From positions 1 to 33,320 of the forward strand of contig JAGBEA010000035.1 of assembly GCA_017937195.1 (NCBI GenBank): a stretch of 33,320 nt of DNA. Direction: 5' to 3'. Each line of letters starts with the position of its first letter. Positions within the stretch are counted from its first letter, which is position 1. The position numbers and the translations under genes were made by a program. Below are positions 4,594 to 33,320 of the stretch, piece by piece. This stretch comes from Oscillospiraceae bacterium. GTDB taxonomy: Bacteria; Bacillota; Clostridia; Oscillospirales; Oscillospiraceae. The notes under the pieces are model-generated. The model searched no databases. It was not told the origin of the DNA and saw only the letters and a list, made by a program, of their open reading frames with translations.

Positions 4594-5034
4594 TTATTCC
4601 ACTTTCATGGTATAGGTGGCGCCGTCCACGATCTCGGTCATATCCACACCAGTCACGGCATACTCGCCGTTGACATAGAACGACCAGTACTTGCCGTCCT
4701 TTTCATACTCGTAGGTCATGGAGTTCACCGTCTTGACATAGAGTCCGTAGGGTCCCTCCTCGCCTGCCAGCAGGTCCAGCGCCATCAGCGCGTCGCCAAC
4801 GATCTTCTCGTCGGTCTTGATGGTGGCCGATACCTCCTTGCCATTCACATCCACCACCGTGAAGGTGAACTGGCGGCTGCCCTCACCCAGCGTTTCACCG
4901 CCGGTGATCACATTGGTATCGCCGTAGTCATCGGGCGCTGTCGCCTTGCATCCCGTCGCAAACAGTGCCATAGCCGCAATCAGCACCGCGCAAAGGATGA
5001 ACGACAGCAGTTTCTTCATGCTGCTTTTCATCAT
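4594..5034 (-). CDS. DUF4430 (transcobalamin-like C-terminal domain) lipoprotein, cobalamin-riboswitch controlled
   Basis: The 146-residue precursor has a lipoprotein signal ending LFATGC, with the lipid-bearing Cys at 29. The mature part is one small beta-rich domain of about 110 residues with KYWSFYVNGEYAVTGVD near the C-terminus. That W-F-x-V-N-G-x-x-x-x-G-V-D pattern is typical of DUF4430, a fold related to the C-terminal domain of transcobalamin and intrinsic factor. The protein should sit outside the membrane. A cobalamin riboswitch covers its 5' leader (5104-5254) and the gene is monocistronic, so a role in corrinoid capture is a reasonable inference. There is no transporter gene beside it. 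The first ATG is chosen for its spacing from AAGGAG (5043-5048). Confidence 0.88.
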   Translation of the reverse strand: MMKSSMKKLLSFILCAVLIAAMALFATGCKATAPDDYGDTNVITGGETLGEGSRQFTFTVVDVNGKEVSATIKTDEKIVGDALMALDLLAGEEGPYGLYVKTVNSMTYEYEKDGKYWSFYVNGEYAVTGVDMTEIVDGATYTMKVE

Positions 5035-5103
5035 TGCATACTCCTTATAGATTGTATTTCCCCGCCGTGTGACCGGCCCTCGCAGTCGGAGCGGAGCTTT
5101 GAT

Positions 5104-5254
5104 GCTGGGATATACCGGCTCGACACAGCAGCTTCCGCCTTCTCAGATCGCTCCAATGGCTTGTCCCCGCCTGCGGCGGCGGGTCAGGAAACGGCTATTT
5201 GTTCGTGTCTTACGGCGACGGGCTCGCACAGGTCTTGCACCTGTTTCCCCCAGC
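5104..5254 (-). ncRNA. Cobalamin (B12) riboswitch aptamer
   Basis: Reading the minus strand, the conserved core is present in order: GGGAAACAGGTGCAAGACC, then GAGCCCGTCGCCGTAAG, then AAGCCATTGG...GAGAAGGCGG, and finally TCGAGCCGGTATATCCC. These correspond to the GGGAA/GGTGNNANNCC, GCCCNCCGCYGTAA, GCCACTGG...GGGAAGG and GAGCC-GG-A-ACC blocks of the cobalamin aptamer. GCTGGG (from 5254) pairs with CCCAGC (to 5104) to close P1. The next 60 bases have no U-run terminator, so control is probably translational. A CTCC segment near 5090-5096 could pair with the GGAG of the ribosome-binding site, but that pairing is short. Confidence 0.9.
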
Positions 5255-5264
5255 CTTCGCCGCT

Positions 5265-5293
5265 ATCATACCACACCCCACCACCCTTTTCAA
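5265..5293 (-). promoter_or_regulatory. Promoter of the riboswitch-lipoprotein transcript
   Basis: TTGAAA (5288-5293) and TATGAT (5265-5270) on the minus strand with a 17-base spacer place the start near 5258, just before the aptamer. Confidence 0.8.
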
Positions 5294-11265: not shown

Positions 11266-11527
11266 TGTCACCCGATGGTGACATCCTGCGCGGTGCGTGA
11301 TGAGCCTTTTTTATCCTGACATATGTTATAGGGGATGTCGGATCAGTATGTGGTTTGCAGGCCTCCCGACTGCTGTCTGCGGTTGGATGTTGGAAGCAGT
11401 AAAGCAAGCTGGAGACAACCCACCTGCTAAATTGGTGCAGGTTATAACTTGGCTCCCACCGCCTCGCGGGATCGAAAGCCAGTCGGCTTTTCGCTCCGGT
11501 CCGGGAAATCCCCGGACCGGTTTTTTT
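11266..11527 (+). ncRNA. ssrS: Structured non-coding RNA, probably 6S RNA
   Basis: No gene is visible here, but there is a promoter, a long rod-like fold and a terminator. ATCCTGCG-CGGTG (11283-11295) pairs with CACCG-CCT-CGCGGGAT (ending at 11472), and GAGCC pairs with GGCTC further in. Inside is a large asymmetric bubble, a CCTGACAT/ATGTCGG hairpin, an ACCTGC/GCAGGT hairpin on the 3' side, and an apical ACTGCT/AGCAGT stem. A closed rod with a central bubble and about 190-nt core fits 6S RNA, which binds sigma-A RNA polymerase. In Bacillus subtilis bsrA (6S) lies beside the tcdA homologue yrvM, and tcdA is 1.8 kb downstream here. A different Clostridia RNA class is possible. Confidence 0.55.
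11496..11527 (+). terminator. Terminator of the structured RNA
   Basis: A perfect 10-bp stem, CCGGTCCGGG with CCCGGACCGG, is followed by seven T. A second hairpin (CGAAAGCC-AGTC-GGCTTTTCG) lies just before it. Confidence 0.93.
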
Positions 11528-28084: not shown

Positions 28085-28621
28085 ATGAAAACACGCACAT
28101 TGATCCTGACGGCGCTGTTCACCGCACTGACAGCCGCCGGCGCACTGATCCGTATCCCCACGCCCTTTTCCGCCATCACCCTGCAGTTTTTCTGCACCGC
28201 GGCGGCAGGGGTGCTGCTGGGCAGCCGATACGGCGCACTGTCACAGCTTTTATATGTGCTTCTGGGTCTTGCAGGCCTGCCCATCTTTGCCATGGGCGGC
28301 GGGTTTGGCTATGTGCTGCAGCCCTCCTTCGGCTTCACGCTGGGGCTGATCGCCGCGGCGTGGATCATCGGCGCTGTGACCCGTCAGCGCTGCGATGCAC
28401 CGTACACCGCTATGGGCTGCGCGGCAGGCCTTGCGGCGGTGTACGCTATGGGGCTGCCCTATATGGCGGCGATTCTGAACGGCTATATGGGGCTGGAGCT
28501 GACCGCATCGCAGCTGCTGCTGGCGGGAATGGTGCCCTTTCTGCCTGCCGATGCACTGAAGATCGCGCTGTGTGCGCTGCTCTTCCCCAGACTGCGCCGT
28601 GCATTGGGCAATATCCACTAA
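28085..28621 (+). CDS. bioY: Biotin transporter substrate-binding subunit BioY
   Basis: The 178-residue protein has about six TM segments, starts MKTRTLILTALFTALTAAGA and continues with LIRIPTPFSAITLQFF, the BioY signature. It also has GGGFGYVLQPSFGFTLG in mid-protein. BioY is the S component of an ECF transporter for biotin and needs EcfAA'T encoded elsewhere, or works alone. The ribosome-binding site is weak, but the ATG at 28085 gives the usual length. Divergent birA and the shared palindrome point to joint control by biotin supply. Confidence 0.93.
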   Translation: MKTRTLILTALFTALTAAGALIRIPTPFSAITLQFFCTAAAGVLLGSRYGALSQLLYVLLGLAGLPIFAMGGGFGYVLQPSFGFTLGLIAAAWIIGAVTRQRCDAPYTAMGCAAGLAAVYAMGLPYMAAILNGYMGLELTASQLLLAGMVPFLPADALKIALCALLFPRLRRALGNIH

Positions 28622-28662
28622 TTTATCCGGTATTTTTCTATCGAATCTCGTCGCAGCTGCTC

Positions 28663-28691
28663 TTGCTTTTTCCCCCCTCGGCTCGTATAAT
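28663..28691 (+). promoter_or_regulatory. Promoter of the uracil permease leader
   Basis: TTGCTT (28663-28668) and a perfect TATAAT (28686-28691) have a 17-base spacer. The start should fall near 28698, followed at once by a strong ribosome-binding site (AGGAGG, 28707-28712). Confidence 0.85.
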
Positions 28692-28720
28692 GAACCCAGT
28701 GACTTGAGGAGGTGAAAATC

Positions 28721-28795
28721 ATGATGCATTCTGTCAGCCGCGCAGCTTCCATCATCGTTTTTCCCTCTGTTTTTGTTTCTATTTTTGGCTTTTAA
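28721..28795 (+). CDS. 24-residue U-rich leader peptide of the uracil permease gene
   Basis: A perfect AGGAGG with an 8-base spacing starts a short frame, MMHSVSRAASIIVFPSVFVS followed by IFGF and TAA. The last 12 codons lie in a very T-rich stretch: 25 of 37 bases from 28757 to 28793 are T, with several T4-T5 runs. The TAA overlaps the first two bases of an intrinsic terminator stem (28794-28822), so a ribosome at the stop would cover the 5' arm. This is the arrangement of the E. coli pyrBI leader (pyrL), in which low UTP stalls polymerase in U-runs, the ribosome catches up and the terminator fails. The match in logic is inference. Confidence 0.75.
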   Translation: MMHSVSRAASIIVFPSVFVSIFGF

Positions 28796-28822
28796 CCGGT
28801 AGTATTACCGGTTTTATTTTTT
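28794..28822 (+). terminator. Intrinsic terminator (attenuator) ahead of the uracil permease gene
   Basis: A perfect 8-bp stem, AACCGGTA-GTAT-TACCGGTT, is followed by TTATTTTTT. It lies between a good promoter plus leader peptide and the permease start at 28899, with no second promoter I can see, so expression must pass through it. Confidence 0.85.
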
Positions 28823-28898
28823 GCCCCAATGCGGGTAAAATAAGGCAGTTTGCGAGAAAATCACCATAAAACAAAAACGAAAGAGAGGCAAAATCGCA

Positions 28899-30236
28899 AT
28901 GAAGAACAACCTCGGCCAAGAGGCCATCTACGACGCCAGAACGCTGGGTCTGCCCCGCATGCTGATTCTGGGTCTGCAGCATCTGTTCGCCATGTTCGGC
29001 GCCACCGTTCTGGTCCCCATTCTGGTGTCCGGCTACGGTCTGCCCCTGTCCATCCAGACCACGCTGCTGTTTGCAGGTCTGGGCACCCTGATGTTCCACG
29101 TCTGCACCAAGTTCAAGATCCCCGCTTTTCTGGGCTCCTCCTTCGCTTTCCTGGGCGGCTTTGAGGCTGTCGCCAAGCTGGACAGCGGTATGTACGCCGG
29201 TATGACCGGTGAGGAGAAGCTGCCCTACGCACTGGGCGGCATCGTGGTCGCCGGCTGTCTGTATCTGGTGCTGGCTCTGCTGTTCAAGCTGGTGGGTGCC
29301 AAGAAGGTTATGCGCTTCTTCCCCCCCATCGTCACCGGTCCTATCATCATTCTGATCGGTCTGAATCTGTCCGGCAGCGCTGTTGCCAATGCCTCCACCA
29401 ACTGGTTCCTGGCTCTGGTGGCCATCGTCATCATCATCGTTGCCAACATCTTCGGTAAGGGTATGATCAAGATCATCCCCATCCTGCTGGGTGTTGTGGG
29501 TGCCTATATCGTAGCTCTCATCTGCGGTCAGGTGGACTTCTCCGCTGTGAATGATGCTCAGTTCGTAGGTCTCCAGCAGATCGTCATCGCCAAGTTCGAT
29601 GTCACCTCCATCCTGATCATGGCTCCCATCGCCATCGCCGCCATGATGGAGCACATCGGCGACGTTTCCGCCATCTCCTCCACCACCGGCCGCAACTTCA
29701 TTGAGGATCCCGGTCTGCACCGCACCCTGCTGGGCGACGGTCTGGCAACTGCCGTGGCCGGTATGTTCGGCGGTCCTGCCAACACCACCTACGGTGAGAA
29801 CACCGGCGTGCTGGCTCTGAGCAAGGTCTACGATCCCCGCGTTGTGCGTCTGGCTGCTTACTTCGCCATCATCCTCAGCTTCTCCCCCAAGTTTGATGCG
29901 CTGGTCAACTCCATCCCCACCGCCATCGTGGGCGGCGTCAGCTTCATCCTCTACGGTATGATCTCCGCCGTCGGTGTGCGTAACATCGTGGAAAACCGCG
30001 TTGACCTGACCAAGTCCCGCAACCTGATCATCGCCGCTGTCATCTTTGTGTGCGGTCTGGGCTTCACCTCTATCGGCGGTCTCAGCTTCACCATCGGCAG
30101 TGCCACCGTCACGCTGTCCGGTCTGGCCATCGCCGCTCTGGCAGGCGTGATTCTCAACGCCATCCTGCCCGGCAACGACTATGAGTTCGGCACCTCTGTG
30201 GAGGGCGACAAGTCCGCCGATCTGGGTTCCTATTAA
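28899..30236 (+). CDS. uraA: Uracil permease (NCS2/UraA family)
   Basis: The 445-residue protein has about 14 TM segments. It starts with TLGLPRMLILGLQHLFAMFG, has MEHIGDVSAISSTTGRNF then IEDPGLHRTLLGDGLAT, and GGPANTTYGENTGVLALSKV (291-310). These match UraA rather than xanthine permeases: Glu251 and Glu300 align with the uracil-contacting Glu241 and Glu290 of E. coli UraA. Asp255 replaces the proton-coupling His245. It imports uracil with protons. GAGAGG lies upstream of the ATG. Its 200-base leader carries the attenuator described above. A strong terminator follows. Confidence 0.93.
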   Translation: MKNNLGQEAIYDARTLGLPRMLILGLQHLFAMFGATVLVPILVSGYGLPLSIQTTLLFAGLGTLMFHVCTKFKIPAFLGSSFAFLGGFEAVAKLDSGMYAGMTGEEKLPYALGGIVVAGCLYLVLALLFKLVGAKKVMRFFPPIVTGPIIILIGLNLSGSAVANASTNWFLALVAIVIIIVANIFGKGMIKIIPILLGVVGAYIVALICGQVDFSAVNDAQFVGLQQIVIAKFDVTSILIMAPIAIAAMMEHIGDVSAISSTTGRNFIEDPGLHRTLLGDGLATAVAGMFGGPANTTYGENTGVLALSKVYDPRVVRLAAYFAIILSFSPKFDALVNSIPTAIVGGVSFILYGMISAVGVRNIVENRVDLTKSRNLIIAAVIFVCGLGFTSIGGLSFTIGSATVTLSGLAIAALAGVILNAILPGNDYEFGTSVEGDKSADLGSY

Positions 30237-30406: not shown

Positions 30407-32767
30407 TTACGGCGCCGTGATCTCGGTCAACACATCCTCCACGCTTCTCAGGTTGAAGATCTTCACCAGCGTCTCATCGCTGATCAGGGGTGCACCGCCC
30501 ATGGCAACGCCCATCGTCACGCCGTTATGCTCGGTATAGGAGGCGGCATAGACCTCGTCACCGTCAGCGGCCAGCAGCAGAGGCGCACCTATCATACGGG
30601 CCAGAGGACCTGCGCACAGACCGTCAGGGAAGTTATAACCGTAGGCTGCAACAGCCATCACGGGAGTGTCGAAGAAATACTCAGCCACCAGAGCGGAGGT
30701 CTCAAAGCGGTTGGCGCCTGCCAGACGATCCACCCAGACATAATACTCACCGTCGAGCTCGTCATACAGATGCCACAGCTGGTTCTCCACAGCGGAGGAA
30801 ACGGCGCCGGTGCCGCCTGCCAGCACGAATTCCTCAGGTGCCCAATCCTGCAGGAAGGTCACCTGCTCTTCCGTCAGCACATCGTCCACCAGCAGGATGG
30901 GCAGACCGACAGCGGAGGCAGACAGACTGTCGGCAAAGTTGTAGCCGGTGCAGACCACGCACTCCCAGGTGGCACCACCAGCGACGGTGAATGCCTCATC
31001 CAGAATGGCGAGGTTGGTCTCAAAGCGGCTGGGACCTGCCAGACGCTTGAAGGTCATACCAGCGCTCTCAACCGCTGCCAGCTCATCACTGACAATGGTG
31101 GCGCCGCCCAGTGCGTAAACGGTTGCGTCATCTGTAGCGTATGCCGCGATAAACTCCAGCACATCGTCCATATTGTCATTGTCGGTCAGCAGGATGGGCG
31201 CATGAGCCACAGAGGCCAGATAGCTGCCTGCCAGCGCATCGGCAAAGTTCTCGCCGCTGGTGACGACCACAGCCTTAAAGTCGCCGGTGTCTGCGTGCAT
31301 CAGCTGGGCAGCCTTGAAGGCGGTCTCATAGCGGTTGCTGCCGAAATTGCGGAGCACAAAGGGCCGGGGATTGGCGATCAGCACATAGTCGTAGCTGTCA
31401 GCCTCATCGTGCTTGTACTCGTCATAGTCGAAGTCCTCCACCTCGTATGCGGCATACACGCCAACATTAGGAGGACACTCCACATACAGACCGCCCAGAG
31501 GCACATCCAGTGCGCTGTATTCCCCTTCATACTCGCCGTTGGCGGCGGAGACCACTTCCACCTTCACAGCGGTGTAAACATCCATCGTGTCATAGACCTC
31601 GATGCCGTCGCGTCCAGCCTTGACATTCAGCTCACCGGCGGTAACCACCAGAGAGTTGTCTGCGTAAATGCCGGTGTAGGCGGCATCCACATTCACCGTG
31701 CCGCCGGCAACGGTGATCTCATCACCGTAGATACCGTCGCCGGAGCTCTTGATGCTCAGCGTGCCGCAGGAGGCGGAGTCGATGCAGAGGGCGCCATACG
31801 AGGTGATGCCGAAGGCAGAGCTCTCCGCGGTCTGGTTCAGGAAATTGGTGCCGATCAGGTTGATGTACACATCCGCGTACAGCGTGTTGATGACATCGTA
31901 GCAGCCCTCGTCGTCAGCATCATAGCTGCCCACGCCGGTGTAGGTATAGTTCTTCAGCGTCAGCACGCCGCCATAGTAGTGGGCATAGTTGTCACCGGGG
32001 TTGGAGGTGGTGGGAGCGGAAGCGCCGACCTCGAGATACTCGCCGTTTTCCAGCTCAACGCCGCCCACATAGATGGGATCCACTACCGGAGCGATGACCA
32101 GCTTGTCATAGTTGCTCCACGGCTCGTTTTCAAAGGGTGCCAGATAGTAGTTGTTGGCGCTGTCCTTATAATAATTCGCGGCCGCATAGCCTTCGGGATA
32201 AACGATGGGGGTATCCAGATAGGTAGCGTAGTTCGCCCAAGCATAGAGCTCGCCGCTCTTAATGACCAGCCCCTCGGCATAGATGCCGTCATCGTAGGCG
32301 TCGATAAACAGCGTAACATCCTGAAGCGTCACCGTACCATCGACATTGAAACCGTCATCCTGGCCATTCGCGCAGTATACCTCCAGGCTGCCGTTACCGT
32401 AAATGCTCACATCGCCGTAGATATCAAAGATATCTCCGGCAGAGGTAGAGCTGTTGCCCAGATAGTTTTCGCCCAGCACATTGACCGCCAGATCGCCGCT
32501 GTAGTAGACATAGTCGCCGCTCATAGCCAGCGCGCCGTCATAGTTTTTCAGCGTCAGCACGCCGCCTTCAAAGTAGGCATAGTTGTCCGTCAGCGGAGTA
32601 TCCGTGGGGGTGTTGCTGTCCTCGGACAGATACTGTCCGTCGCCCAGCGTAACGCCGCCGAAGGAGATCTCGTCCATGCTGGCCATTGCCGTGGCAGGCA
32701 GCAGGCTCAGCACCATCACCAGTGCCAGCAGGAGACCTGCCAGTTTCCTCATGCGTCTTTTCATCAT
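30407..32767 (-). CDS. Secreted cell-wall-binding protein with three CWB2 repeats
   Basis: The 786-residue precursor has a signal peptide (about 1-30, LAGLLLALVMVLSLLPATAM). An N-terminal half of beta-helix-like repeats follows (GGVLTLKNYDG, GGVLTLKNYTYTG, DGIYAEGLVIKSGELY, DGIYGDEITVAGGTV); the YVGGVELENGEY and FGGVTLGDGQY segments mark two copies of a module. The C-terminal half has three CWB2 repeats (NRYETAFKAAQL, SRFETNLAILDEA, NRFETSALVAEY; NFADALAG, NFADSLSA, NFPDGLCA). CWB2 binds the anionic wall polymer of Gram-positives without covalent linkage. The start follows GAGGAGG. The cargo half probably decides its role, which is unknown. Confidence 0.9.
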   Translation of the reverse strand: MMKRRMRKLAGLLLALVMVLSLLPATAMASMDEISFGGVTLGDGQYLSEDSNTPTDTPLTDNYAYFEGGVLTLKNYDGALAMSGDYVYYSGDLAVNVLGENYLGNSSTSAGDIFDIYGDVSIYGNGSLEVYCANGQDDGFNVDGTVTLQDVTLFIDAYDDGIYAEGLVIKSGELYAWANYATYLDTPIVYPEGYAAANYYKDSANNYYLAPFENEPWSNYDKLVIAPVVDPIYVGGVELENGEYLEVGASAPTTSNPGDNYAHYYGGVLTLKNYTYTGVGSYDADDEGCYDVINTLYADVYINLIGTNFLNQTAESSAFGITSYGALCIDSASCGTLSIKSSGDGIYGDEITVAGGTVNVDAAYTGIYADNSLVVTAGELNVKAGRDGIEVYDTMDVYTAVKVEVVSAANGEYEGEYSALDVPLGGLYVECPPNVGVYAAYEVEDFDYDEYKHDEADSYDYVLIANPRPFVLRNFGSNRYETAFKAAQLMHADTGDFKAVVVTSGENFADALAGSYLASVAHAPILLTDNDNMDDVLEFIAAYATDDATVYALGGATIVSDELAAVESAGMTFKRLAGPSRFETNLAILDEAFTVAGGATWECVVCTGYNFADSLSASAVGLPILLVDDVLTEEQVTFLQDWAPEEFVLAGGTGAVSSAVENQLWHLYDELDGEYYVWVDRLAGANRFETSALVAEYFFDTPVMAVAAYGYNFPDGLCAGPLARMIGAPLLLAADGDEVYAASYTEHNGVTMGVAMGGAPLISDETLVKIFNLRSVEDVLTEITAP

Positions 32768-32797
32768 TTGTACCTCCTCTTTTAATATTGTGTTTTT

Positions 32798-32826
32798 ACA
32801 GTACCACAAAATTTTTCATCATTCAA
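32798..32826 (-). promoter_or_regulatory. Promoter of the first CWB2 protein gene
   Basis: TTGAAT (32821-32826) and TACTGT (32798-32803) have a 17-base spacer in an AT-rich stretch on the minus strand. Confidence 0.6.
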
Positions 32827-32942: not shown

Positions 32943-33320
32943 TCAGCCCAGCTGGATATCCTCGCCTGCGCCCATGGAGAAGATGCGGTAGACAACGCCA
33001 TCATCGATCAGGCTGGGACCGCCGAGGACGAAGCCGCTCTCGATGCCGGCGTTGTTGGCATAGACCGTGGCCGGTCCTTCATCGCCGTTGGCGGTGAGGA
33101 TCAGCGGTGCGCCCAGTGCATATGCCAAGGGACCGGCGCACAGACCATCGGGGAAGTTGTAGCCGTAGGCCAGCACCGCGTAGTCAACGCCGGTGCTGCC
33201 GAAGGCCTCAATGGCCGTCAGCACGGAGGTGTCAAAGCGGCTGGCGCCTGCAAGGCGAACCACATCGCGGCCCGTTGCCCGCAGCTGCTCCTCCACGGCG
33301 GGCTTCACAGCGCCGGTGCC
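32943..33320 (-). CDS. CWB2 wall-binding protein, C-terminal end (cut by window edge)
   Basis: The visible 125 C-terminal residues begin GTGAVKPAVEEQL. They contain a full CWB2 repeat: RLAGASRFDTSVLTAIEAFG, VLAYGYNFPDGLCAGPLAYA and FVLGGPSLIDDGVVYRIF. The repeat is very like the last one of the neighbouring protein (YGYNFPDGLCAGPLA is shared exactly), so the two genes are probably a tandem duplication. The gene runs off the right edge and its cargo half cannot be seen. Confidence 0.92.
   Translation of the reverse strand, partial: GTGAVKPAVEEQLRATGRDVVRLAGASRFDTSVLTAIEAFGSTGVDYAVLAYGYNFPDGLCAGPLAYALGAPLILTANGDEGPATVYANNAGIESGFVLGGPSLIDDGVVYRIFSMGAGEDIQLG

Follow-up and report, generated by a model that had tools for sequence, protein, structure and literature searches.

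A U-rich leader frame ending inside a terminator precedes uraA in Oscillospiraceae gut bacteria: a probable UTP-sensing attenuator

In many Oscillospiraceae gut bacteria, the gene uraA is preceded by a U-rich leader frame whose stop codon lies inside an intrinsic terminator. We describe this leader on contig JAGBEA010000035.1 of an Oscillospiraceae bacterium (the window, 33,320 nucleotides, whose numbering is used throughout) and in its uraA relatives. By analogy with the pyrBI operon of E. coli, we consider it likely that the leader is a cis-acting, protein-free attenuator which senses UTP and thereby ties uracil uptake to UTP.

The uraA leader in the window

The leader and uraA are both on the plus strand. 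The leader-uraA promoter (28663..28691) consists of TTGCTT at 28663-28668, a 17-base spacer and TATAAT at 28686-28691. It is followed by an AGGAGG ribosome-binding site (RBS, 28707..28712) and by an open reading frame (ORF) of 24 codons (28721..28795, MMHSVSRAASIIVFPSVFVSIFGF), and a frame in the same position is conserved in relatives. The stop codon TAA (28793-28795) overlaps by 2 nt the stem of the intrinsic terminator that we take to be the attenuator (28794..28823). Its 8-pair stem (28794-28813) reads AACCGGTA-GTAT-TACCGGTT and runs into the T-rich tail TTATTTTTTG. The U-rich tract within the ORF (28757..28793) is the presumed UTP-sensitive slow stretch.

A preliminary description of this locus, made from the sequence alone, had reported the perfect AGGAGG, the 24-codon frame, the TAA overlapping the terminator stem and uraA downstream, and all of these are found in place. 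Its count of 25 T in the last 37 bases of the frame needs correction: there are 24 in the last 36 bases before the stop and likewise 24 in the last 37, and the T-richness itself stands. The promoter it called good is so only in part. The TATAAT and the spacer hold, and a promoter of the same pattern is found before 80 of the 95 non-redundant leaders described below, compared to 1.4% in shuffles. The -35 element TTGCTT is weak, matching the consensus at 3 of 6 positions, which is why the promoter is missing from the list of our promoter scanner. The terminator scan of the region returned three terminator-like sites compared to 1.8 in shuffles, and a single match of this kind is thus within chance expectation. 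Taken alone, the window's promoter and terminator matches are near chance; the conservation in relatives lifts the layout above chance.

uraA (28899..30236, ATG at 28899) is separated from the terminator stem by 85 bases and encodes an NCS2 nucleobase:cation symporter of the uracil permease type (445 aa). The protein matches TIGR00801 with 337 bits, above the cut-off of 291.8, and its best-scoring specific model is the uracil permease PRK10720, with 324.7 bits under a model cut-off of 477. Specificity for uracil is thus suggested by homology, the match to the narrow model being below cut-off. The uraA RBS is AGAGAGG (28882..28888), which is similar in relatives and recurs in many of them as AGAAAGAGAGG (judged by eye). 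The GAGAGGC in which the preliminary description saw a weak resemblance to the PyrR loop belongs to this RBS and is not a PyrR loop.

The earlier claim that uraA has no second promoter agrees with the pattern in relatives. Promoters between the terminator and uraA were found in 2 of the 85 upstreams tested, which equals the chance level; the terminator-uraA gap is shorter than 45 nt in 36 of the 95 leaders. With promoters there at chance, transcription probably reaches uraA by read-through of the terminator.

Elsewhere in the window, the neighbour genes include bioY and birA. A 6S RNA lies at 11280-11476 on the plus strand (Rfam, 54.4 bits, above the gathering score of 46.4), and a Cobalamin riboswitch (41 bits) at 5086-5293 on the minus strand, ahead of a DUF4430 ORF at 4594-5034. 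Also on the minus strand, 30407-32809 encodes a protein with cell wall binding 2 repeats, and the adjoining ORF at 32943-33308 looks similar by eye.

Conservation of the leader and of its U-richness

From a search with the uraA protein we kept the best 80 of 502 related loci, mostly labelled Oscillospiraceae, Ruminococcaceae and Clostridia, with a few spirochaetes; among these 80, the closest relatives are at most 92% identical and labelled Oscillospiraceae. The union of two detectors (hand count) gives 76 of these best 80 with a leader frame that ends at a terminator, 73 coming from one detector and three (L044, L067 and L071) being added by the other. Neither detector found the layout in L052, L064, L078 and L079. 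We also used a strict rule, which demands the layout plus a T count over the final 36 bases (T36) of 13 or more. Under this rule the leader is found in 49 of 81 uraA upstreams (the window and the best 80 of 502 relatives), compared to 61 of 3200 (1.9%) when the part before the terminator is shuffled, and at none of 341 other long ORFs from the same loci.

For statistics on the leaders themselves, we found 110 in 162 upstreams, kept 108 and retained 95 as non-redundant; the detector hits in L153 and L198 were struck out by eye as false before the 95 were analysed. These leaders are 17 to 38 codons long and their peptides differ widely. In 53 of the 95, the stop codon is positioned -4 to +1 nt from the stem; in most others it lies deeper in the hairpin. 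T36 is at least 13 in 86 of them and lower in 9.

What is retained is U at silent positions. Over their last 11 codons the leaders have a wobble T/(T+C) share of 0.70 (560/805), compared to 0.17 (3865/22725) in their own uraA genes, and the share is higher in the leader than in its own uraA in 95 of 95 cases (Wilcoxon, p value = 2.6e-17). Leaders use TTT, GTT, ATT and TCT where uraA uses TTC, GTC, ATC and TCC. The short frame, the T-richness and the stop/terminator overlap, whose conservation the preliminary description had named as support for its reading, are therefore kept in relatives. The peptide is only weakly conserved: dN/dS is around 0.52 for the leader compared to 0.084 for uraA (7 close pairs, with few sites and a rough method). 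A cruder estimate on 17 overlapping pairs gives 0.92 for the leader, which makes it difficult to judge how far the peptide is constrained at the level of the frame.

The same codons bear on whether the signal could be an amino acid or the general translation state, as in trp or his leaders. Such attenuators share with the uraA leader a short ORF with a strong RBS that ends at a terminator, and of the 1045 residues that the 95 leaders encode in their last 11 codons, the most frequent are Phe (179), Ser (163) and Val (113). No residue is dominant, however, and neither these codons nor the peptides checked contain a regulatory codon run for one amino acid. What is in excess is wobble T, unnecessary for a sensor of amino acids but expected of a UTP sensor acting via polymerase speed. 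Moreover, the leader stands before a uracil permease gene, or before carB in one congener. Amino-acid sensing was accordingly dropped, and we regard a signal of this kind as unlikely.

The leader design is also found outside the main group of loci. Three spirochaete-labelled contigs (L063, L070 and L075) carry a uraA that is 69-71% identical, with the same leader layout, which suggests either transfer of uraA together with its regulator or mislabelled bins. In the congener G218, carB is preceded by a leader of like design (L241:1790-1935) with its stop codon in the terminator loop, recognized by eye and not reported by the detector. Of five stretches fetched for the pyrimidine operons of congeners, four have the operon start within view (G240 does not); by eye, the de novo operon starts of G204, G207 and G220 have no leader, leaving G218 as the sole carrier among the four. 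The start of the window genome's own de novo operon lies off its contig. Among the G000 congeners, many of whose genomes are incomplete, carB is over cut-off in 7 of 31 genus genomes and carA in 1 of 25, suggesting that de novo pyrimidine synthesis is often lost and that these bacteria depend on uracil uptake.

PyrR in the family

In Bacillota, pyrimidine genes are usually under PyrR-type control. The PyrR attenuators of this phylum (RF00515) resemble the uraA leader in attenuating pyrimidine genes, and they require a sensor protein and an RNA site, neither of which was found in the window's genome. The best PyrR match there scores 23.9 bits compared to a cut-off of 138. That genome is 92% complete, yet no protein passes the PyrR cut-off in G125 either, a congener assembled into two contigs. 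The PyrR-binding RNA was found neither in the window nor in its genome, the genome search having stricter filters that may lose weak matches, and at a relaxed threshold no Rfam match in 28600-28960 scores more than half its gathering score. PyrR control, raised as an alternative in the preliminary description, was checked and rejected for this leader, there being no gene over cut-off and no site in this genome. In the Thermus pyr operon, translation of a leader frame relieves a terminator and PyrR controls the translation of that leader, whereas the window's genome is without PyrR over cut-off.

We surveyed 200 genomes of the family. PyrR is over cut-off in 35 of them, a PyrR site is found at E<=0.001 in 16 and over the gathering score in 2, and uraA is found at E<=1e-60 in 87. 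Of 90 listed uraA places, the upstreams of 82 were examined; left out were G196 (contig edge), G176, G161, G137, G197, G052 and G092 (distant partial matches) and the second piece of G189. With the strict detector, the leader is found in 26 of 69 PyrR-less compared to 0 of 13 PyrR-bearing upstreams, without correction for kinship. When the relaxed detector is applied to close orthologues (E<=1e-140), the counts are 35 of 57 PyrR-less and 0 of 11 PyrR-bearing (Fisher, p value = 1.3e-4, uncorrected for kinship), and in 22 of the 57 the leader was undetected, the struck-out hits L153 and L198 being counted as such. G136 (partial match) and G017 (distant) belong to the 13 PyrR-bearing places and fall outside the 11 close ones.

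Among the 13 PyrR-bearing relatives examined, pyrR directly precedes uraA in 11 (this fraction, 35/57 and 0/11 are hand counts; the Fisher test was computed). We therefore also inspected the regions upstream of those 11 pyrR genes. A terminator is found in each and a U-rich leader in none, with a single short frame (T36 of 8). Four of the 11 pyrR-uraA loci have a PyrR-site match below the gathering score, one of which agrees in strand and place with a match in the PyrR-site search of the family genomes. This distribution looks like one regulator replacing another and suggests that a protein-free sensor has taken the place of PyrR within one family.

Pairing of the ribosome-binding site, proposed mechanism and alternatives

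The preliminary description missed two features of these loci: the pairing of the leader RBS with the U/C-rich 3′ half of the leader, and terminators that often lie close to stop codons. In the predicted fold of the window, a hairpin at 28708..28768 pairs 28708-28726, a region with most of the RBS and the two ATG codons, with 28750-28768 (CATCATCGTTTTTCCCTCT). The 5′ arm includes 28708-28712 of the RBS, and the first part of the U-rich tract lies in the anti-RBS arm. The fold of leader and terminator has a z of -3.13, a value matched by 2 of 200 shuffles; shuffling codons in this one leader, without its relatives, gives a z of no more than -1.2. Across the 89 of 95 leaders long enough for a swap test, the RBS region pairs with its own 3′ half at -16.59 kcal/mol compared to -14.77 for swapped halves (0 of 5000 permutations). 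When just the last 12 codons are shuffled, the own order folds better (mean z of -1.18; z is below -1 in 50 of 95 leaders and above 1 in 2), and binding of the RBS to the 3′ end is more frequent (0.67 compared to 0.58, higher in 64 of 95). Shuffling the codons of the whole ORF gives a mean z of -1.32, with the RBS bound to the last 36 bases at 0.67 compared to 0.39 (higher in 82 of 95); this test is biased because the 5′-3′ gradient is also destroyed, and we relied on the last-12-codon shuffle instead. In these folding models, the pairing is a real but moderate effect, and it is new.

The hairpin is common to eleven aligned leaders, in which it is 88.5% paired compared to 43-59% for slid structures. 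The alignment has 8 double-change cells (32 of 500 shuffles are as high), with 45 of 500 for the score and 127 of 500 for the cells paired, so the evidence for compensatory change in these 11 leaders is suggestive only. Over the last 36 bases, the U content is 0.47 in the bases paired with the 5′ region compared to 0.45 in the rest, and the idea that the U-richness is a by-product of RBS pairing was rejected.

We propose that the leader works as follows. Transcription would begin near 28699 and a ribosome would load on AGGAGG. With ample UTP, RNA polymerase would outpace the ribosome through the U-rich tract, the hairpin at 28794-28813 would form and transcription would stop near 28822. With scarce UTP, polymerase would lag in the tract and the ribosome would reach the stop codon at the 5′ edge of the stem. 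From geometry only, a ribosome at the end of the frame would cover the 5′ arm of the terminator; its footprint would block folding and polymerase would read on into uraA. More weakly, we infer that the U/C-rich 3′ half, by folding back onto the RBS and the start codons, may allow a fast polymerase to shut the leader to ribosomes as well. Since the RBS would be closed when polymerase is fast, the anti-RBS arm could raise the sensitivity to UTP. It is possible, and we put it forward tentatively, that the tract is at once a UTP-sensitive polymerase brake and an anti-Shine-Dalgarno arm, making up a kinetic gate through which ribosomes load only when low UTP holds polymerase.

A review (PMC10953045, citing Johnson et al. 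2020) reports possible uncoupling of transcription from translation throughout Firmicutes and also gives short stop-terminator spacing as a sign of uncoupling predicted for this phylum. Of 44 terminators that follow long ORFs in our loci, 18 begin at most 12 nt from the stop codon. Given this mark of uncoupling, a ribosome following behind polymerase may normally fail to prevent termination at these loci, and polymerase outrunning ribosomes by default, if it does so here, would suit a terminator that stops transcription except when UTP is short.

The predicted pairing offers a different regulatory step, in which the anti-Shine-Dalgarno hairpin itself decides, through an unknown factor or its own kinetics, and the U-richness mainly follows from pairing with a purine-rich RBS. 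The preference of the RBS for its own 3′ half over swapped halves and the better folding of the own codon order over shuffled ends agree with it. The similar U content of paired and remaining bases speaks against it, as does the choice of wobble T over C although C pairs better with G, and the covariation is suggestive in one subset only; we hold this explanation to be improbable. Control by PyrR, another protein or a riboswitch would be the usual arrangement in Bacillota, and PyrR is over cut-off in a minority of the family genomes (35 of 200). The absence of PyrR over cut-off from the window's genome and from its congener G125, the lack of a PyrR site and the Rfam scores leave it a very small probability. 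We attach as little weight to the idea that the frame is an unrelated small gene with its own terminator that happens to lie beside uraA without regulating it. It draws on the near-chance promoter and terminator matches and on the short stop-terminator spacing common in these loci, but the position before uraA is conserved and was not seen at the 341 other genes, promoters after the terminator are at chance and the peptide is weakly constrained.

We therefore return to the UTP-sensing attenuator, and the pyrL-like interpretation of the preliminary description is supported in the sense that the leader probably works like pyrBI. In pyrBI, coupling across the leader prevents the terminator, which at normal UTP is not prevented, as the available sections of PMC4824070 and PMC5021804 describe. 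The same sections give the points of likeness, namely a short translated frame, a U-rich stretch before an intrinsic terminator and a pyrimidine gene downstream. pyrL has 44 codons and runs through its terminator, while the window leader has 24 and stops at the stem edge. By eye there is no peptide similarity between the two, and the likeness is one of design. Unlike pyrBI, the window system would serve uracil uptake, in Bacillota, and its anti-RBS arm overlaps the U tract. In a predicted fold of 110 bases of pyrL (E. coli MG1655, L244), run without a control, the RBS CGGGAGGA pairs with the U-rich UUUUCUUCCCG, and in a longer fold that includes the terminator this pairing is not formed. The short fold hints, no more, that pairing between RBS and U tract may have arisen twice.

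Ribosome-dependent attenuation has been described or proposed in Firmicutes for leader peptides of bacilli, such as histidine leaders (PMC2965389, in part) and drug-responsive ones, for example B. subtilis yxjB (PMC6851288, in part). Those leaders sense histidine or an antibiotic, whereas the window leader shows U-richness without a regulatory codon run. As of 2010, leader-peptide systems were considered unproven outside Proteobacteria and Actinobacteria, ermC apart (the same portion of PMC2965389), and the accessible portion of PMC6429828 does not mention uracil. Within the open-licence literature, subscription papers being outside the scope, no title or abstract opening that we found reports a uraA leader.

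The leader probably switches on uracil uptake at low UTP, in a group where such control was thought rare. It would give gut bacteria, many of whose congeners seemingly lack carAB, a way to tune uracil salvage. An attenuator that seems to depend on the ribosome catching up with polymerase also makes the question of coupling in Firmicutes testable at one gut-bacterial locus. If the kinetic gate is true, Bacillota, thought to be largely uncoupled, would have a locus at which coupling is switched on by nucleotide shortage.
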